In this document: in pieces, positions 42,225 through 58,346 of the stretch
How positions within the stretch are numbered: position 1 is the first letter of the stretch
How the letters are laid out: each line of letters opens with the position of its first letter
DNA from: Diprion similis
Lineage: Eukaryota; Arthropoda; Insecta; Hymenoptera; Diprionidae
DNA length: 64,000 nucleotides
Direction of reading: 5' to 3'
Assembly: GCF_021155765.1 (NCBI RefSeq)
Contig: NC_060111.1
Coordinates: forward strand, 186,001-250,000
Notes under the pieces: model-generated
What the model was told of the DNA's origin: nothing
Database searches by the model: none
Seen by the model: the letters and a program-made list of their open reading frames with translations, nothing else
Program-made: the position numbers and the translations under genes

Positions 42225-45200
42225 ATGCTTCTACTCGTGGAACTCATGGTTTTGGCGGCTCAGATAATGGCGCTGGGTCACGAAGTCGTTGCAGGTAAGA
42301 AAAGCAACCTGCACAAATCGAAATACCGTATTGTTCCGAGTATAAGCTGACCCCGCTTATAAGACGACGCCGCGACGCCCAATTCCAAGACAATATTTCG
42401 GGTTTTTTTTCTTAATTACCCGCATATAAAACGAGGACGATTTTGGCGATTGGTGTCGAGGATGAAAAAAATTTCGGTTTATGTTCCAAAGAATATGGTA
42501 TTGTTTTCCCCCTTGGGTCGACTTTGCGTATTACGTCATCTTCGACGAAGCGGAATCATTTCTCCGATTTTCAAGATCGATATGAAATTGAATTAGGTGA
42601 AATAGTTTTTCATCGTATTTCTAAATGGTGCCACGAGTATGTGTGTTTTTACTTTTTTCCTTCTCATCACGTAATTCAAACATTGAAGAAAAATTGAATG
42701 AATAAACAAATAGTAAGTACATAATAGCTATCGGAATCTCAGGACGCAGTTATAAGACCGCACGTACCGCGCCACCATAATCTATGACTTCCCACGGACC
42801 TATTATATTTACGAGTGATATTTTTGTTGACGAAATCCGGACCATTCGTACTAATCTGTAGTGTTTTACTCTACATGTACGTATAGAAACGGTGATAACG
42901 GCGGCTGAGGCGCCCGCGTGGTTCATGAAATCGGAATTCTTCTCCGAAAGCGAGCCAATGACGGACCTGAGCAAACACCCGTGTCGGCGAAGATGCAGGG
43001 ACGGAGAGCCCTCCATGGAATGTCGCTACGATTTCCGTCTTGAGGCTTATCACACAATGAGCAAAGCCTGCTTCGACTGCTTTTCAAATATAACCGACTG
43101 CTTCAGGCAGGATTGCATTCCCGCCGACGGCGTGAAGCGATCCCTCGTCGTAGTCAACCGGCAGATGCCAGGACCCGCTATCGAGGTAGGCGACATTCCC
43201 GTCTGACTTTGGAGAAAACGTACATATCAAGATAATGCACGAGGCTCGACCGATCCCCGATAGTGAATATATTTTTACTAATTCTTTCGACGTTCAGGTC
43301 TGTCTGGGGGACCGGATAATAGTCGACGTCCACAACATGTTGCCCGCGGAGAGCACGACCATGCACTGGCACGGACAACACCATCGCAGCACCCCTTACA
43401 TGGACGGCGTACCCTACGTGACGCAGTGCCCGATTCACCCTGGAGCCACCTTCCGGTATCACTACGGCGCAGCCACCTCCGGGACCCATTTTTGGCATTC
43501 GCATTCCGGTGAGTACGAGGGATATACCCGATCGCCCTTGTCTTATTTTCCCTGCAATTTCATCAATCGAAATTCCGTAATGCGCAGGATTTCAGCGCGG
43601 CGACGGTGTCTTCGGCCCGCTCATAGTCCGCGTTCCACCCCTTCTGGACCCTCACTTTAATTACTACGACTTCGACGAGCACACGATGATCGTCATGGAT
43701 TGGGATCACGAGACCGGCGCCGATAAGTTTCTCGCTCACCACCACGCTGGCGGAGACAACAAGCCCTCAAACCTTCTGGTGAACGGCCTCGGCCGCTACG
43801 ATGGTGTCAAGACACCCCTCGCCACTTTCGTTGTGAAAGAGGTGTGTGTTGACGTAATTGACTCGCCTTGTGGGTCATATGCATGCGGCTAACCGGTTCG
43901 ATCTTCTTTCAGAAACGAAGGTACAGATTCCGCGTGATAAACGCCGAGTTCCTCAATTGTCCAATCGAGATCTCTATCGACAATCACACCATCTACGTAA
44001 TCAGCACCGACGGAAACGATATCCAACCGGTTGAAGGTGAGCTGAAGGCATAAATTAGGGTTTCCACCTAGCGGCACTGTTGTAAGAGCCATAGTACTTG
44101 GACACGGGTGGGGAAGCGTTCAAGCACAAAATAGGGAACGCGGCGCTATCGAGAGTGGCACTATTGGTAGAGCGCCCTGTAGATTACAACGTCTATTTAA
44201 CCTGCGCGATCGATTTCAGCCGAATCGCTAGTTACCTACGCTGGGGAGAGATTCGACTTTATCCTCCAGGCAAACCAGAAGCAGGACAACTATTGGATTC
44301 GGTTCCGGGGTCTTATGGACTGCGACGAGCGGTTCACCAGGGCAAACCAGGTGGCAATTTTACGGTATATGGGAGCACCCGAGGTCGAGCCAACCGCAAA
44401 TGTATCTTACGAACGAAATGTTTCAACCTCAACGAAAGCGTTGGTGAGAACTCATTATCCGTTCTAGCAAGCAACTAAGAATAATGCTACTTTGAAATAT
44501 GGACATGTAATTTGGGCATCTCTTATTTGTTGTGTAACAGCAAGTCAATGCGCTCAATCAAGGCACGGAAAATAACGCGACGACCAGCATGCCGTTACTG
44601 TACTCCCTGGATCTCGACAACGAGGCCAACACCAGAGATCCGGATTATCAGTTTTATATTTCTTATGATTTTTATGCAAAGGATAACCCCCATTTTCACC
44701 GGAAAAATCTCTACGGTTTTCACAAAGGTAGTTTTCATCACTCGAATTCAAGAATAAATTTAGAACCAGATGAATTACACTCAACGACGAATACACGTGC
44801 AAGTGTCTTCCAAGGATCCATCTAAGATCCTCTCATCCAAAGATATATTCTTTATACTTTTTAGTGATAAACAACAGTCAGAGAGTATTTACGCCCCAAC
44901 TTAATTACATATCAATGAAACTACCGGATTTTCCGCTGCTCTCCCAACGCGAAGCGATCCGGCCTGATCAGTTCTGTAACGAAAGTAGCGTTACAAATTG
45001 CGAAGAAAACTATTGCGCCTGCACTCACGTTCTCCAAGTAAAATTGGGAAGCGTGGTAGAGCTGGTTTTGATCGACAAAGGTAAATACACGGTTTGATAA
45101 GAGAGGACTCAGTTCAGCATAATTCGGGTTTCAATCCAACGAATACGATAAAACTTATTTTCAACCAACAGGTTTTACCTATGATGCAAACCATCCATTT

Positions 45201-47702: not shown

Positions 47703-48853
47703 ATGGCTTGCCAAGCTCTCGGACGGTGCCGCATCTGCGCTCGGAAGCACAAAATTGCCATCTACGGAAGCGAAGAGAGGCAACATATCTTCATTGAGAA
47801 AGCCAACCTGAAGCTCATTGTGAGTTACCATTTGTCAATTTTTATTTTCACCTTCTTTTACAATAATCACAGTAAATATTTAAACATTATTTCTCAATCA
47901 GAAAATCGATGGGCAAAGTGTAGAAAAATTGTTCTATCCACTTTGCAGATTTTGAACACCGTGTGCGCAGTTTGCATAACGAAAATCGAACGTTTGATAA
48001 AGAAGATGGATCCGGACCTGAATTTCAGCAACGGCATCGAGGATCAGGATAACTACGAGATAAAGCCTGATGTAAACTTGCAGTTGTCGCGAGAAGAACC
48101 CAGGGAAAGTAGCGAAAAGGTGAACGAGAACAGTGAAAAATCTGCATCTATCAGATCGACGACGAAGGACGTCGAATCTCCGGTCCATCCCGAGCGGAAG
48201 TCTGTCGCGTTTCAGGGTTCGATTGCAATCACAAGAACGAAAAGAGTGGAAACCCCGTTTCGAAAACGCTTTAGAAATGACCATTCAGATATTAGCGACA
48301 AGTCTGAGGAAACAACCACGCCGAAAGAGTGGCGAGATTCATCGACAACATTTGCGACTCGCGACGAGAGGGAAGCGAACAGTTTATCGTAAGTTGAATT
48401 CCCATGATCGAAAGTCATACTGAATAAAGATTTGAAGCGCATTAAATCGTGTATATTATTAACGGTTTTCAACATTTTTCTTATTCTTACAATTCTTGGT
48501 GTGTTTCGTATAGGCCGGCTGGACCTCCCGCGGTGTGTACTATTACCGCCACGAATCGCGGCTCGGACGATACTTTGTTGGCCGTCAAAAGGCAAGGCCG
48601 TTGCTTGTCGTGTGATTTTTGTCAAAAGAGGTTTACACATGCAGGCGACCTGAACAAACACCGTCGAAAGCATACTGGAGAAAAACCGTACGAGTGTGAC
48701 CAGTGCCAACGGAAGTTTGCGCACGCTTCGAACTTGGCGAGGCATCAACGTGTTCATTCCGGCGAGAGACCGTTCGTTTGCACCGGATGCACCCGAACAT
48801 TTAGCAGGCGAGATAAACTGACTGTCCACGTTACAGCGGGACGCTGCTGCTAG
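47703..48853 (+). CDS. ZAD-like C2H2 zinc-finger protein
   Basis: Three exons (47703-47819, 47949-48388 and 48514-48853) give 298 residues. The N-terminus has a Cys pair (RCRICARKH) and, after splicing, a second pair about 36 residues later ([12 protein letters not shown]). This is the C-x2-C...C-x2-C layout of an insect ZAD dimerisation domain, although short. An acidic, Ser/Glu-rich linker follows. Two canonical C2H2 fingers (C219-H239 and C247-H267) are joined by TGEKPYE- and SGERPFV-type linkers. A third finger (C275/C278/H291/C297) ends in Cys rather than His, four residues from the C-terminus. The fingers imply sequence-specific DNA binding in the nucleus, probably as a transcription factor. 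The ortholog is not identified. The first intron is 129 bases with no in-frame stop, so its retention would leave the frame open. Confidence 0.82.
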
Positions 48854-49766: not shown

Positions 49767-50744
49767 CTAAACATTTGAGTGAATTTCTTCCGTTCCAGGT
49801 ATGCAAATGGTGTAAGAAGTATTCTTTTGCAAGGGCCTCTGCATAGGATGTGCGAGTAATTTGGCCATATTGTCATGGAGTTTGGTGGCGTTTCTTCCAA
49901 CTTCTAGGATATAAGATAAATTCTTAGCATCTAGAGCCGTAAGCTCGTTGTAAACTTCTTCACACATGTTCTCGCTACTTGGCGGTTCGTGAATAAACAA
50001 AGCATCCAGTATGAAGTATGGATTATCTGACAACAACTCGAAAAATTTGTTTCCTGTTTGAAACCGGGGAATACAGTTTGACCGCGAGTAAATCAATATA
50101 GCCCTTGTGATGAAAGAGGGGATATCATTGGAGTCCGTGTCCCTTGGCAAATCGGTATGAGTGTTAAGAGCCTCGAACACTTGGCTTAGATCAAATGAAG
50201 TGTCGTCTGTATTGAGTTCCTCTTCTGCGAGAGAATCTAGAGTGTTGAGAACGGTTTTGATATTGGCGGTAAAGTCGCAAACCCATTTGATCGAGTCAGA
50301 GCATAGAGTCATTATAGCAAACTCATGGTTTCGATTGATCATCGACTTTGCACCAACGAAAATTTCAACAACTCTTTTTATTAAAAACATAGGCATGTAG
50401 GTAGCTCCTGTTCCTAACTTGAATTGGGTGCAGTCCTTCTCTTTGGTAATGTCAATTATCAATACTATTTTCTCAGGCAGATTAATCTCTGGCAACGAGC
50501 GTACCATATCATTTTCATCAGTCTTATATGTTTCCACTTCCTTCTTCATTTCCTGCTTGTTATGAACTTGCATTGGAATAGTGGCGGCGTGGTAGTTTTG
50601 GCGGATCGACGATAGTGGGTTAATCAGCTCCGTAGCCTCTCTAGGACCACTCATAATGTTCTCTATCGTTGTCACAGTCTGAAACCTCCGCGCCATCGAC
50701 TGTATTTCGTCGCTTGAATCCTGATTGTCTATCATTTTTAACAT
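49767..50744 (-). CDS. BABAM1: BRISC and BRCA1-A complex member 1 (MERIT40)
   Basis: A single 325-residue open frame without introns, near the length of human BABAM1 (329). The core reads LPEKIVLIIDITKEKD (first strand of a degenerate von Willebrand A fold), IKRVVEIFVGAKSMINRNHEFAIMTL, and ITRAILIYSRSNCIPRF. The C-terminal signature is LHDNMAKLLAHPMQRPLQKNTSYTI, which closely parallels LHNCMAKLLAHPLQRP in the human protein. BABAM1 is the scaffold subunit of the BRISC and BRCA1-A K63-deubiquitinase complexes. The N-terminal 90 residues are polar and variable. An alternative start is the Met three codons in (MIDNQ). The head-to-head flank at 50745-51271 probably holds its promoter. Confidence 0.92.
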   Translation of the reverse strand: MLKMIDNQDSSDEIQSMARRFQTVTTIENIMSGPREATELINPLSSIRQNYHAATIPMQVHNKQEMKKEVETYKTDENDMVRSLPEINLPEKIVLIIDITKEKDCTQFKLGTGATYMPMFLIKRVVEIFVGAKSMINRNHEFAIMTLCSDSIKWVCDFTANIKTVLNTLDSLAEEELNTDDTSFDLSQVFEALNTHTDLPRDTDSNDIPSFITRAILIYSRSNCIPRFQTGNKFFELLSDNPYFILDALFIHEPPSSENMCEEVYNELTALDAKNLSYILEVGRNATKLHDNMAKLLAHPMQRPLQKNTSYTICIPGTEEIHSNV

Positions 50745-51271: not shown

Positions 51272-51303
51272 GGGTATGTTCCGATATGCACTGTGAGCAC
51301 TGT
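51272..51303 (+). repeat. Left terminal inverted repeat of Harbinger element
   Basis: Matches the reverse complement of 58315-58346 at 30 of 32 positions; the two differences are at the 17th and 23rd bases. Confidence 0.88.
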
Positions 51304-51724
51304 AAGGTGTGACGTCACTTTAGTATACTGCGAAGCCGTTCCTTTATAGTTAGCTATACTGGTTACTGTTTAAAACGGAACGCAGTTCAGTATACTGTTA
51401 CCCATGATTTTTCCCGCTTTTTTCACTTGAAAATAATTATAAATGTACAAGTTATCTGTTCAAGAAAAATTGTTGTTGAGTGTAGTTATACCTAAAAAAT
51501 GAATATTCAAGTTAATAATCAATTGAATTAATCGCATAATAAAAGTAAGTATACTTTTGGTTAAAAGAAAATATTGTTTTTTAAGCAACGTTAATATAAC
51601 TTTACATATTAACATAATAACTTTATAAACGAATTATTTAAATGAGGTTATGTACGGTAAAAGTGATGAACTTATTTCAACAAATAATTGTTTATTATTT
51701 AACTGGCAAAAAAATGTATAGCCA

Positions 51725-53158
51725 ATGGAATACGCATTAATTGCAACTGCAATTGCTGGTGCAGTCCAAAATTTATTGGAATCTTCCGATGATGAATCTG
51801 ATGACGATGAAGATCTCATATACATCTTTGGAAATCGTGCGGGACAAAATATCATCGTCAGAACAAAAGATTATGTGGAGACAACCGTTTTTAGAATGAC
51901 TGATGAAACTTTTAAAAGTCACTTTCGGTAAGGCATGCATTTTTATCCAATAAAGTTATTGATTATTTTTTTTCTCATTAAAAATCAATGTAATTAGAAT
52001 TTTCATTAACTGTTTTTCATTGGATTTCCATTTTTTACTCAATTATAGCATGAGGCGAGATACTTTTCAATTCCTACTAAATTTACTCGGACCTGATTTA
52101 CATAAACAATCTGTTCATTACGGTAGACACCCCATTTCTGTCGAAAAACAGCTTCTCTTGAGTATTTGGACCATGGCAACACCAGACTCCTACAGGTAAA
52201 ATATTTATTTCATGCTATTTATCTACTCTGAAAAAAGATAGAAATGCAGACGTAATTTAATATATCATTTTTTTAATAGATCTGTATGTGATCGCTTTGA
52301 TGTCGGAAAAGCAACTGCATGGAGATCTGTTTGGAAAGTAGTTAAATCAATTTATAATTATTTACCTGTCTACATCAAATGGCCTACGCGCGAAGAAGCA
52401 AGGACAACATCAAATTATGTACATCGACGGTACGGATTTCCAAACGTTTTTGGAGCAGTTGATGGAACACATATAAGAATAGCTCAGCCCAAAGAACACC
52501 ATGCTAGCTATATTAATCGTAAAGGATTTCATTCCATCCAAACTCAGGTATTAAAAAAATTATATTCTTACTACACACGTACATAATTGTATGACTTATT
52601 TGAAAAAAGTTAATTTTGTAATTTCAGCTAGTATGTGATCATAAATTGAAAATCATTCATGCATATTGTGGTGAAGCAGGTTCAGTTCATGACGCTCGAG
52701 TTTTCCGGCTGTCAAGTCTACAAAATTATTGTACACCTGAATTTCTTCCTGATGACACTCATTTGTTAGGAGACAAGGCTTACAGTATCCAACCGTGTAT
52801 AATGGTACCTTATCGAAACAATGGTAATTTAAGTCAAGAATGTTTACGATACAATATGATACATTCGAGTTCGCGTATGATGATAGAACGAGCAAACGCT
52901 TCATTAAAAGGGAGATTTCGCAGTTTATTAGACAAGCTACCATTCAAAAGAACCGATTTAATACCATATTATGTTATTGCTTGTTGTATTTTGCACAACA
53001 TTTGTATTTTGAGAAACGATTTGATCGAAATTCCGATTCTTGTGAATCATGACATTCCAGCATTTGATGTTGATGTTGAAGTAAATAATGCCATGAAAGT
53101 TGCCGGAATGGAGAAGAGAGAACGCTTGAAAAATTTTATTAACAATTTGGAAATTTAA
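51725..53158 (+). CDS. Harbinger transposase (HARBI1-like, DDE_Tnp_4)
   Basis: Four exons (51725-51927, 52049-52195, 52280-52547 and 52628-53158) join in frame to 382 residues. An acidic N-terminal patch (ESSDDESDDDEDL) comes first. A helical DNA-binding-type region follows, with the family words RMRRDTFQFLL, SVEKQLLLSIW and VCDRFDVGKATAW. The RNase-H-like catalytic core then shows all three acidic residues: D178 in FGAVDGTHI, D255 in LLGDKAY and E293 in MMIERANASLKGRFR. The C-terminal helices include LIPYYVIACCILHNIC, the usual end of this family. Transposase and Myb partner together mobilise Harbinger elements. All splice sites are canonical and there are no internal stops, so the copy looks functional in coding terms. 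It is more likely a transposon gene than domesticated HARBI1, because it sits inside TIRs beside the Myb gene. Confidence 0.92.
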
Positions 53159-53339
53159 TGCGTTAGCTATAAATGTGTGCAACTTAATTACAAACTGTTA
53201 AATTCATGTATATAAATTTATGAAAAGCAGGCATTCAAATCGATTTGATTGAAAAACAAATTGTACATTTGTTATAAACATATGTTCCTCTGTAGAATTT
53301 TTACGGGTTATCGCTATGAAAACTAAATGAGAATTAATA

Positions 53340-54230
53340 GTTCAGTTTAGTTTAGTTTAGTTTATTTGTTTTTCCTCATGTTGGTGTACACGTTACATTG
53401 AATCAATGTGATTTACATAGATATATTTGCTATTTATACAAGTAACAATCATTTTTTTTTTTTTTTACATTTTTCTTGTCATGATTTTTACGAAAAATGA
53501 ATACCATCCTGTGTACCTTCATGTAGAGTGCTGTGCCCTTACCCAGATAAGTTTGTAGGCTTGTGCGTAGGGAGTTCAGGGTTTAGCTTCATTTTGTCCG
53601 TTATTGTGATTGTTTCGTCAGTACTGTGTTTTGTCTTCTAGCTATAATTAGGTTTATTCCGGGTTTGTAATTTTATCGAAGTATTTTTTTCCTTTGTTCA
53701 ATATCCATTGTTTTATGTCTCTCTTAAATCTGAGTATTGGTTGTTTTCTGATTTCATTAGTAATTTTGTTATAAATATTTCTGCCTATGTAGACAGTTTG
53801 GTGCTGTCCTTTTGTGGTGAATGTTTTCAAATTTGTTATCTCTTTGTTGACTTTAGCCATTGTGTTATGCGTATGCACGATCTGATATTCTTCGTCCATT
53901 AAATTTGTTTTGTGTATTTTTATCGGTGCAACCTTCATGTAAATTTGTCTAATATCTGATAATCCTGTTTCTTCAAAGAGTTTTTCTGTAGGGTAGGTAC
54001 ATCCTATCTCTTTTGTATGCGATTCTTGGGATGAGCTTCTGAGTAGTGTCAATGATTATTTCTAGGTATCTAATTTCTTCGTATGTGCATTTCTTGTGTG
54101 TTATATAACATTTGTGCAGTTTACACCCGTATTCATAGTTGTCCCTCAATAGATAAGGGGTCCTCATTGTATGTTCTATACACACCATAAGGAATCTTTG
54201 TTCCTCAAGGAAGGACTATGAATACGGGTA
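53340..54230 (-). mobile_element. 5'-truncated, decayed non-LTR retrotransposon (LINE) fragment
   Basis: The minus strand encodes a C-terminal LINE ORF2-like segment (54052-53654) with the pattern EKLFEETGLSDIRQIYMK, then HNTMAKVN, then VYIGRNIYNKITNEIRKQ and FKRDIKQWILNKGKK. Upstream sequence continues in another frame, which indicates a frameshift. A (CTAAA)n-type 3' tail lies at 53341-53365. A short inverted repeat (ACCCGTATTCATAG and its complement) at about 54124-54230 lies at the 5' edge and may reflect a 5' inversion on insertion. No domain capable of activity remains. Confidence 0.7.
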
Positions 54231-54684
54231 TTAATCAAAAATTACGGACCGCATGTTTCTTCTTCCATTTTGCTCGATGCGTATATCATATATTTGGTTT
54301 TTTTGCCGTTTAAGGATAGTAGTTGCTCATTAAAATGTAAAAATTTATTAATAATAAATTTTTTTTCAACTTTATTGGTATTTCTTTTCCAAGTTATTTT
54401 ATACATTTTATTTTTAAAATACGTATATTATAAAGTACTTGAAAATGTATTATAAATTATTTATCGAAAAATATAAAAATATTAATCTTTCTAATTTGTA
54501 CTGTTCATTTTGGCAAACTTTTAGATAATAACATTTATTTTTATGAAGATAGTCATTAGACTAAAAAACTCTTATCAATAATCAACATTTTTTAAAATCT
54601 AGATCTTCGGTTTTTCAGTAATGACTTAGTACATGTTAACATATAAGCTCTAATATGTAACTACAGTGAGTACAGTCTCCATAA

Positions 54685-54933
54685 CGGCTGCCCAATTTTA
54701 AAACACAGTAACTGACAAAAAGAAAATTTTTCAGGAAACCAATAAAACATATTGTAGTCGAGCCACACGAAACGGTAACTATACATGAGAAATGAGCAGT
54801 AAATTATCATCATATTTAAATCGTGATAAAATATGAGTCGGACTCTTTTTGTAGGTCTGCACCAAAACAAAGAATGCCAAAAAATCGATTTTGAAAAATT
54901 TGTGAGTTACTGTGTTTTAAAATTGGGCAGCCG
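54685..54933. mobile_element. 249-bp inverted-repeat element (MITE) inside the Harbinger
   Basis: The ends are inverted repeats of 29 perfect bases beginning CGGCTGCCCAATTTTAAAAC. The element is flanked on both sides by ATAA (54681-54684 and 54934-54937), a plausible target-site duplication. It has no coding capacity. It lies between the transposase and Myb genes, so it inserted after the Harbinger element. Confidence 0.8.
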
Positions 54934-55011
54934 ATAATTTTTAAAATCTAATTAAAATGATAATATTGACAATGACTTTATAAAATAAGAAATGATAAAA
55001 AATACTTAATC

Positions 55012-57911
55012 CTAATTTTTTTTACCCATAAGTTGTGCTACAACATCTGTCAGTCGATTCATAGCAGCTATTTTTTCCTGATGGTGTTGTTCACGGATCT
55101 CGTCTCTTCTCTTTCTTTCTTCAACTAATTGGTCGCAATAGTCTTTTAAACATTTTTGCCTCTTGGATGGTGGACTTTTGATTTCGTGTTCTAAAAATTA
55201 GAAAGTTAGTTTTTTATTTCTCAATGAAACGTAAGAACATGACAGGAAACTTGTTTTGTAAATTTTAGGTAATTTTGGAAATTAGTAAAAGCATAAAATA
55301 TAAATTAAAGCTTTCGAATGGCAATATCAATTATAAATATTTTCGAAAATGTTATAAGTACCCATTTCGTTGGGAATATTTGATCCTGCAGTTGACAGAG
55401 GTTGAACCCATGGCTGCTCACCAAACAGCTCTTCCATTTCCTAGAAATTATAGATTTATTTAAAATTAATTCAAACATATTAACGTAAAAGAAACAATCA
55501 TAAATTTCAAATATTACATCATAGTAAGGCCAAGTAATTTTTGAATTCCCTGATTTCTTGTTGCTGTCTTTCAGATTCTTATAATGACGCTTTAGGGTGT
55601 CCATTTTTGTTCTGCATTTTTTTTCATCAATAAGCGGTAATCCGTGTTCGGCAAGTGTAGTTTTCATATCATTTACGACCTTCGACCAAACTTCACTTTT
55701 ACAAGCATTTTCTTCTAAAAATTCCAATTGGTGTTCTTTGTATGTTGCAATTAAAAGTAAAACCTCTTCTTTCGTCCAGTTGTGTATTGCTTTAATTGAA
55801 TGATAACAATATATTAATTAAAAACGTATTATAAAGTAGCTGAACTTATAATCAATGTAATTGTAATCTTATGACATAGGAAGTAGCAGATATTGAATAA
55901 ATGTCAAAGTAATTTGATAACTCCATATTGGTAAAAGATTTTTTTGGACATTTTCTAGGAACAATACATTAGATATTTAATTTATTTTTGTGTTAAAAAG
56001 TAATTGTTAACTAAATTTTTTATCACACGTAGAGTTACCCAATTTGCTAATTAGAACGTCGATATGTGATCTTAGATTCTTTCTTTAATTAGCATCGAGT
56101 GAACGTTTCATTATTCAGGTTTTATTACATCTTACCAGTTTTTGCATCGCTGTCATCTGGAATTGATTTTTGTTTTCTTTGTGATTTACTGCTCGATGAC
56201 GCGGTATGTGATGTAGCAGCCGTCAAAGGCACTGCATCCGAAAAACCTTGGTGTTCTGTTGTATTGTCAACAGAATCAAAGCTGTCTACAGAACCATCAA
56301 ATACTGTTATTCCTGCAAGTTATAAATGATTATGAAATAATTATTAAACTTGTAAGCCGACCACCTCCTGCCCGCCAATTCCGGGAAATCGTTACGGCGG
56401 CAGGGAGTGCGTACAAAAGGCGTCCGTGAGGCGTGACAGAGAGACAAAGCGGAATTGCAGCAAGAAGTAACCTGAAAGAAATTGTGTTGGGTGCCAGGTA
56501 CGAATATACCAGATATTGAGGTAGAAGCGGAAGGAGGTATTAACAGGAATAGGAAACCAAGTAGCTCAGGGATTTAGAGGGAAACGTGTGCCAATGAGGG
56601 AAACTTGCCAAAAGGGTTAAGTAAAGAATAACCAAGGATTTATTTAAACCAATTTATTTATTTATTTATTTATCAAGAATCAACGGGCAGAAAATGCCCT
56701 TTACAGTAAAATAAATACAAAAAAATAAAAAATAAAATGAACTAATATTATATGTTATATAAAATAAACCAATAAACCAATATTCAAAATTGATCCATTC
56801 TCAAAAAGCTTCCTAACGGTCAGACAGTTTATGAAACGCAAGTACGGCGTCAGCGGCAAAGAATGATATATAGTATAAATTCGAGAACAATGCGAGGAAG
56901 AGCAATAATGACTTAACAAGTAGTGCTAGTTATTTATGTAAGAGCCACGCGATGACTGATGCGAGCTCGGGCATCGCGGATAATGTTCGACGCTTAATTT
57001 GAAATGCGATAATAGGTCAGATTAAGACAATAGCATAGCACACAAATAATGATAAAATAATACGAGGAAATATATCAAATGTGAAATATTACAAGAAAAT
57101 GTTAAAGCTACTGTAAGCTTAAATCTTATATGCAGTGTCGCAATACCCAGACGCGTGGCAGCGGATCACCGATCAATTACCACGGGTAAATCTCTAATCT
57201 TGACTAAAAGTAATATCGAAAACAAAAGCAATGAAAATTAGTAAAGCAGAAAACAATGAATAATAATCAGTAAACCAATTACTAATATAAGAAACCGTTA
57301 GCGAATTAGTAGCGACAGAATGCAAAGTTGAGCGAACAATTAATAAAAGAATATTAGATGATAACTCATAACATGGGCCAATATAATAGAATATAAACTT
57401 AAAGTAAAGCAAATTAAAACGAACGAAAACCCGAGAGACGCTACTAATGACTCAAGCGGACAATTCAACAGAACAAAATATACAGCAAAGGACTCAGGGT
57501 TTCGACCGGGAACAGAAAACACACTTACGTAAAGTAAATAGGAGAAAAAGAATAAAGAACTCAGATGTGAATAAAGGAAATTAGAAAAAGCAAGAGAGAA
57601 CTGTTAACTGGTTATGTTAATGTTAGTTAAAGAAAAACTTAGATATCACTTAAGATCTGAAAAGTAAAAGGAACGAGGCAAATAAAGGAATAGAAGCGCA
57701 GGCAGCAAAGACATCTGTCTTCCTCAGGCGGTGACGACAAAGTGAAGAAGTAGGGTAGAGTAGTGCAGCCTCCTGGACGTAAATCGCCATGTTACTAACT
57801 ACAACTAATTTTATTTAAATAATAACAGTATCAATGGAAAAATTATTTATATTGTTTTTCTTTCTTACCCTCATTAATACTTCGCGTCAAAAGTTTATTC
57901 GCAAAAACCAT
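55012..57911 (-). CDS. Harbinger Myb/SANT-like DNA-binding protein
   Basis: Five minus-strand exons (57911-57869, 56312-56136, 55789-55518, 55440-55362 and 55190-55012) join in frame to 249 residues, with consistent phases and canonical splice sites. The N-terminus is short (MVFANKLLTRSINEG), then a Ser/Thr-rich linker. The Myb/SANT-like domain runs from NWTKEEVLLLIATYKEH through VWSKVVNDMKTTL to CRTKMDTLKRHYKNLK, with three helices and the usual tryptophans. A Trp/Pro linker (GEQPWVQPLS) and a basic, coiled-coil C-terminus (ERKRRDEIREQHHQEKIAAM) finish the protein. In Harbinger transposons this second protein aids nuclear import of the transposase and binds the element ends; that role is from the family. 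The 1.56-kb first intron carries unclassified inserted sequence. This gene would be missed by single-ORF searches because its exons are short. Confidence 0.85.
56345..57800. other. Unclassified inserted-looking sequence in the Myb-gene first intron
   Basis: About 1.4 kb with base composition unlike the surrounding element. It is GC-richer at both ends (CCGACCACCTCCTGCCCGCC at the left and a CTCCTGGACGT patch at the right) and A-rich, T-poor inside. A (TTTA)n run lies at 56651-56673. No coding potential. It may be a non-autonomous retroelement remnant, but I could not find terminal repeats. Confidence 0.35.
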
Positions 57912-58314
57912 GTCTGCAAAATAACGAGAAAATATTTTATATAAATAATTAGGTTATGAATTTAATTGTGGTTCAATTGAATATTTACCCATGGATGCAC
58001 GATTATAAATTTCTTCAGTTACTTTCATTTCGTACAGAGTATTTGTTTCACAATGCAATAAACATAATATTCTCAAATTTTCGGGATTTCTATTTGACGG
58101 ATATTTCTTCCTATTTTCCATGTTTGTATTTGACGAATATCTGGACGCGGTTGATCACGTGATCAAAACCACTGAGAGCACCTTACCTCGAGAACGCCAG
58201 TGCTCACAGTACAAAAGTGGTGACGATTGATGACGTCATATATTTCCCTAGGATACTGCGGCAGTATACTGTCGGTCCATAACGGAACGAATTTCTACCC
58301 AGTAAGAGCACTGA

Positions 58315-58346
58315 ACAGTGCTCGCAGTGTATATCGGAACATACCC
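58315..58346 (-). repeat. Right terminal inverted repeat of Harbinger element
   Basis: Reverse complement begins GGGTATGTTCCGATATACAC and pairs with the left end. It is followed outside the element by TAAG. Confidence 0.88.

Follow-up and report, generated by a model that had tools for sequence, protein, structure and literature searches.

A recently mobile two-gene Harbinger transposon in Diprion similis, probably arrived with nested donor elements aboard

Why does the genome of Diprion similis hold a transposon in three almost identical copies, each carrying the same set of other mobile elements, when close relatives of neither the transposon nor its cargo were found there? The locus that raises this question occupies positions 51272-58346 of the window, the 64,000-nucleotide stretch of contig NC_060111.1 that we analyzed, and is a complete two-gene PIF/Harbinger transposon of 7,075 bp. 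It is a real, intact and recently mobile member of this known superfamily. We consider it likely that the nested elements were acquired in the genome of another species, and that the composite later reached this lineage by horizontal transfer and transposed a few times within it.

An intact element at three unrelated sites

We located copies by DNA search with each 300-bp end of the element. Three were found in the 269-Mb genome: the window copy on contig C7 (C7:237272), a second at C1:17994708-18001782, and a third at C10:1566524-1573599. They are 99.9-100% identical. The C7 and C1 copies match at every position of the 7,075 bp, and the C10 copy is set apart from both by six substitutions and a single 1-bp indel, all of them outside the 2,034 coding bases. 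When the regions around the three copies were compared by BLAST (49.5-103.6 kb each, with 21-71 kb per side), the element was the only shared stretch longer than 300 bp. A larger segmental duplication as the source of the copies is ruled out, because the flanks are unrelated. At lower stringency, a 221-bp repeat (80.5%) distant from the element is common to the C7 and C1 regions; with this one shared repeat among the three regions, the comparison is a weak control for host repeats in the flanks. Target-site duplications of 3 bp flank two of the copies, ACA on C10 and AAA on C1. By our own arithmetic, which assumes equal bases, the probability that chance alone produces 3-bp matches at two of the three sites is about 7e-4.

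Three near-identical copies at unrelated sites on three contigs mean that the element recently moved as one unit. The whole 7,075-bp composite, nested elements included, recently came to occupy three unrelated sites, and the recent activity suggested by an earlier, sequence-only reading of this stretch is well supported by the identity of the copies, their unrelated flanks and the duplications at two of three sites. At a mutation rate of about 3e-9 per site and generation, the C10 branch would represent about 280,000 generations, as against fewer than about 70,000 for the C7/C1 pair. The same reading had offered selection as an alternative, on which these copies say nothing firm, because the chance that all six substitutions miss the exons is about 0.13, or 13%, by our own arithmetic, with 29% of the element coding. 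All three copies lie less than 1.6 Mb from a contig end, two of them within about 240 kb.

Gene models were obtained by enumerating splice joins between GT and AG sites within preselected stretches. The core features of the element, by window position, are as follows.

51272-51303, + strand: left terminal inverted repeat (TIR), beginning GGGTATGTTCCG; outer edge set by the three copies in unrelated flanks
51725-53158, + strand: DDE transposase gene; exons 51725-51927, 52049-52195, 52280-52547 and 52628-53158; 382 amino acids; D178, D255 and E293 present
55012-58121, - strand: Myb/SANT (ORF1-type) gene; exons 58121-57989, 57913-57869, 56312-56136, 55789-55518, 55440-55362 and 55190-55012; 294 amino acids
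58315-58346, - strand: right TIR, 32 nucleotides; outer edge from the three copies in unrelated flanks

Splice enumeration and Pfam matches bear out the proposal of a two-gene Harbinger with both frames open, and the predicted 32-bp TIRs are there, 94% complementary to one another. The transposase frame is open over four exons with internal GT-AG joins. It matches Pfam DDE_Tnp_4 at full domain length (E = 3.5e-37), and the D, D and E residues stand at exactly the positions proposed. Two shorter variants were also allowed by the enumeration, and the joins were chosen to fit L052 and L054, two relatives elsewhere in the genome. Matches to relatives L052 and L053 are interrupted near residues 68, 117 and 207, at the exon joins of our model, which thereby gain independent support. 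The match to L054 is unbroken near residue 207, which counts against that join, and an intron at this position is therefore not universal.

The second gene is separate and lies in the opposite orientation, as proposed, with an open frame and internal GT-AG joins; the proposed count of five exons did not hold, as the chosen model has six. It is the longest model, three shorter variants also being allowed. The protein matches Pfam Myb_DNA-bind_4 (E = 8.6e-18). Six Myb matches lie elsewhere in the genome. Three (residues 117-209, 118-209 and 122-209) agree with the boundaries of exon 4, and the other three (112-230, 121-239 and 123-221) cross one of them. Neither the transposase nor the Myb/SANT protein has a sequence match among solved structures. 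Membership of PIF/Harbinger is judged by TIRs, a DDE_Tnp_4-type transposase with D, D and E, a second gene with a Myb/SANT/MADF domain, and a 3-bp target-site duplication; each was found here, the duplication in two of three copies and with a sequence other than TAA/TTA.

Nested elements and their divergence from host families

Three or four inserts lie within the element, counting a small repeat inside another insert and a putative insert in an intron. They include a fragment of a long interspersed nuclear element (LINE) and two elements resembling miniature inverted-repeat transposable elements (MITEs).

53340-54346, - strand: nested 5'-truncated LINE fragment with a TAAAC-type tail; ATTAATA is a possible duplication of 7 bp; identity to a host LINE family about 75%
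54124-54230, no strand assigned: short MITE-like element within the LINE, with inverted arms YACCCGTATTCATAG...; TTA may be a 3-bp duplication
54685-54933, no strand assigned: nested MITE-like element; arms CGGCTGCCCAATTTTAAAACACAGTAACT; 4-bp duplication ATAA directly beside the arms
56360-57785, no strand assigned: stretch of roughly 1.4 kb with a higher G+C content, within Myb intron 2; bounds approximate, set by eye

Every insert is present in all three copies of the composite, so all were acquired before the element spread in this genome. The sequence-only reading was wrong to place three insertions after the active element. It also missed what is most informative here, namely that these inserts seem foreign to the host.

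A DNA search with the nested LINE returned 34 matches, made up of the three composites and 31 others. The best of the others reach 81% over 62 bp and 78% over 354 bp, none of at least 100 bases exceeds 78%, and the long ones lie at about 74-76%. A further part of 106-107 bp occurs at 13 places at 81-83%. We compared stretches at 22 of the 31 places, 17 at first (L035-L051) and then five more. The 17 are 93-100% identical to one another and 69-77% identical to the nested fragment. Two of the five (L061 and L063) fall in the same host family, and the other three (L059, L060 and L062) are old relics that are 61-74% identical to nearly everything. The L035-L051 copies form a young host family with long open frames, and both copies scanned retain a reverse transcriptase frame (RVT_1); such features suggest that this family was probably active recently in the genome. 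The scan for a LINE target-site duplication gave two further 7-bp candidate pairs. We took the pair at the tail, but its length alone proves nothing because of the other two.

The way in which the nested LINE differs from the host family is informative about when the differences arose. Over 113 codons compared with seven host copies, the nested fragment has no stop, a nonsynonymous divergence (dN) of 0.142-0.151 and a synonymous divergence (dS) of 0.63-0.84, giving dN/dS of 0.17-0.23. In simulations of neutral decay with the same number of differences, none of 1,000 runs had so low a nonsynonymous share and 57 were without a stop; runs with undefined dS would have been omitted from this comparison. 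The low nonsynonymous share implies that the divergence mostly arose between working LINE lineages, before insertion, and the pattern rules out decay in place as its main cause.

No matches to the other inserts were found outside the composite. Both 29-bp arms of the MITE-like element at 54685-54933 are identical to one another, and this insert is therefore probably not old. MITE-type elements usually occur in many copies. Across the 269 Mb, these arms were found at up to three mismatches in the three composites only (six arms), and the repeat at 54124-54230, with as many as two mismatches allowed, was likewise found nowhere else. The stretch in Myb intron 2 is probably an insert. A DNA search found no copy of it in the genome outside the composite, and its candidate 7-bp duplications are no more than expected by chance.

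Origin of the composite

Older copies of the element were sought with both the transposase and the TIRs. The transposase search gave 48 matches. The three copies account for the best (86-99% per exon piece, the pieces having been read past the exon ends), and the next best are 58% over a short exon and then 56%. The TIR pattern, at up to three mismatches, found the six ends of the three copies and one stray with three mismatches, against none for a reversed control. Neither search revealed decayed, intermediate or older close copies, and the pattern search revealed no non-autonomous derivatives with the same TIR in the genome. The result is what horizontal transfer leads one to expect, namely near-identical copies without older close relatives in the host. 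More distant relatives do exist. Those at L053 and L054 have in-frame stops in the transposase, and among the DDE_Tnp_4 matches listed, 13 of 93 lack a stop within the match and lie in an open frame of 400 or more amino acids; open transposases are therefore not unusual in this genome, a correction to the sequence-only reading, which called Harbinger copies with both genes open uncommon in insects. The other DDE_Tnp_4 matches seem clustered in certain parts of contigs. Myb relatives lie about 2 kb or less from transposase relatives at C4:7383990 and C2:1878419, and this proximity makes it probable that further two-gene Harbinger families inhabit this genome.

Four stretches that apparently lie outside the Harbinger core and for which the genome yielded no close relatives beyond the composite, the youth of that composite and the failure to find fossil copies together argue that the inserts were acquired in another genome. 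The LINE fragment and the MITE-like elements would have inserted into the Harbinger while it was in the genome of a donor species, and the composite would then have arrived horizontally in this lineage and jumped a few times. On balance, we favor a fuller form of this account, in which the Harbinger crossed species as a composite with at least three donor mobile elements (the LINE fragment and two MITEs), so that these passengers tag the donor and have been copied in the new host without machinery of their own. The LINE dS of about 0.6-0.8 suggests a distant donor, if the LINE was inherited vertically.

Several observations weigh against horizontal arrival of the composite. No donor was found in searches that covered viral, phage and bacterial collections and, among animals, this genome alone. 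The window copy lacks a target-site duplication (CAC on the left, TAA on the right) and no empty site for it was found in the genome, where the left flank has one match, of 63 bp on C14 at 83%. Upstream, the nested LINE carries one in-frame stop and the MITE insertion and has lost about 61 residues, damage which implies that some time elapsed before the spread. In the tree of LINE pieces, the nested copy stands among the old host relics L059, L060 and L062, with support values of 0.000 and 0.710; given these divergent relics and this placement, it may derive from a former host lineage. Finally, counts from the DNA searches with the inserts are lower bounds and very common words were skipped in them, whereas the pattern searches for the TIR and both MITEs are apparently independent of such skipping. 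As to a carrier, no relatives of the transposase were found in IMG/VR or the phage collection, which were not built for insect viruses, the exact TIR was absent from IMG/VR and GTDB contigs, and the exact MITE arm was absent from IMG/VR; a viral or bacterial carrier thus finds no support in these collections. It should also be noted that the window copy lacks a duplication although its interior is identical to that of the C1 copy, which has one.

The rival that survives best is vertical inheritance, in which an old, low-copy resident Harbinger took up host elements whose families then died out, and the composite was recently re-amplified. The grouping of the nested LINE with divergent host relics, though poorly supported, the damage to that LINE and the presence of other two-gene Harbingers would all suit such a history. 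Set against these are the want of intermediate or decayed copies in the searches above, the MITE arms that have not decayed and yet have no sister copies that we could find, and a LINE divergence that accrued under purifying selection and is thus mostly older than the insertion. We therefore regard vertical inheritance as unlikely, while giving it more weight than any other rival.

The composite might instead have come from a close relative through hybridization (introgression), with no distant donor involved, and foreign inserts and near-identical copies would result in that case as well. It is improbable in our view, since species that can still interbreed should not differ by a LINE dS of about 0.6-0.8, provided that the LINE was inherited vertically. 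Co-option by the host, with both genes kept by selection, would account for the two open frames and has published parallels in co-domesticated PIF/Harbinger gene pairs of insects (reported in the sections consulted of PMC9710019), but is very improbable given intact TIRs and three near-identical copies at unrelated sites, two with 3-bp duplications, all of which are marks of a mobile element.

Element ends, surroundings and known relatives

Short motifs recur near both ends of the element.

51322-51398, + strand: left subterminal motifs; three matches to AGTATACTG, two of them overlapping; candidate binding sites
58198-58323, - strand: right subterminal motifs; two overlapping matches to AGTATACTG, three to GAGCACTG, the last within the TIR, and one to TGACGTCA

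On the left, GAGCACTG also occurs at 51295, within the TIR, and TGACGTCA at 51310, just outside the span listed. The motif CAGTATAC has five matches across both 160-bp ends and CAGTGCTC has four, two of them inside the TIRs; neither occurs in the interior of the element. Outside the TIRs, eight canonical 8-mers are common to the two 160-bp ends; base shuffles gave 0.45 on average, and none of 2,000 reached eight. These repeated motifs are candidate binding sites. Characterized members depend on both proteins, with the Myb-like one binding the ends and the transposase cutting; this dependence is published for rice and zebrafish elements (PMC2836001 and PMC9710019). By homology and analogy with those members, the Myb protein here would bind the element ends and recruit the DDE transposase, which would then excise the element and insert it at another site.

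Three other coding features of the window lie to the left of the element. An open frame of 325 amino acids at 49770-50744 (- strand) starts about 530 bp from the element and reads away from it; the region upstream of this frame may contain the element. The frame has no Pfam match, and we take it to resemble MERIT40/BABAM1. A piece of a multicopper oxidase (Cu-oxidase_3) lies at 43190-43657 (+ strand), and a piece of a C2H2 zinc-finger gene at 48446-48850 (+ strand). No RNA families or tRNAs were found in the window.

As with the animal two-gene type of PIF/Harbinger, represented by Harbinger3_DR and insect PIF, the element combines TIRs, a DDE_Tnp_4 transposase, a separate Myb/SANT gene, repeated subterminal motifs and a 3-bp target duplication (at two sites here). 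It differs in the long nested inserts, in the window copy that lacks a duplication, and in the duplicated sequences themselves, ACA and AAA, where TAA/TTA is named for Harbinger in the passages seen of PMC4735498 and PMC2836001. Harbinger-Snek of sea kraits is likewise a two-gene Harbinger reported as horizontally acquired. As described in PMC8437027, it is strongly expanded and has short non-autonomous derivatives, in contrast to the three full copies here, for which no derivative was found; the word "nested" is absent from the main text of that paper. Harbinger elements of moths, which transpose into baculovirus genomes (PMC4735498), offer a plausible carrier route between insects, as against the lack of viral relatives of our transposase noted above. 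Among the literature titles and abstract openings surveyed, none described the use of elements nested from a donor to argue for transfer.

Horizontal transfer of transposons is often claimed from the patchy distribution of an element and from a similarity between species that is higher than expected. The locus described here shows recent mobility of a Harbinger to which inserts, partly intronic, have added about 2.7 kb. If the nested elements are derived from a donor, they would add independent evidence of transfer and a practical tag for that donor, which would be a species carrying the same LINE at near identity together with both MITE families. The apparently foreign cargo thus makes the question of origin testable.

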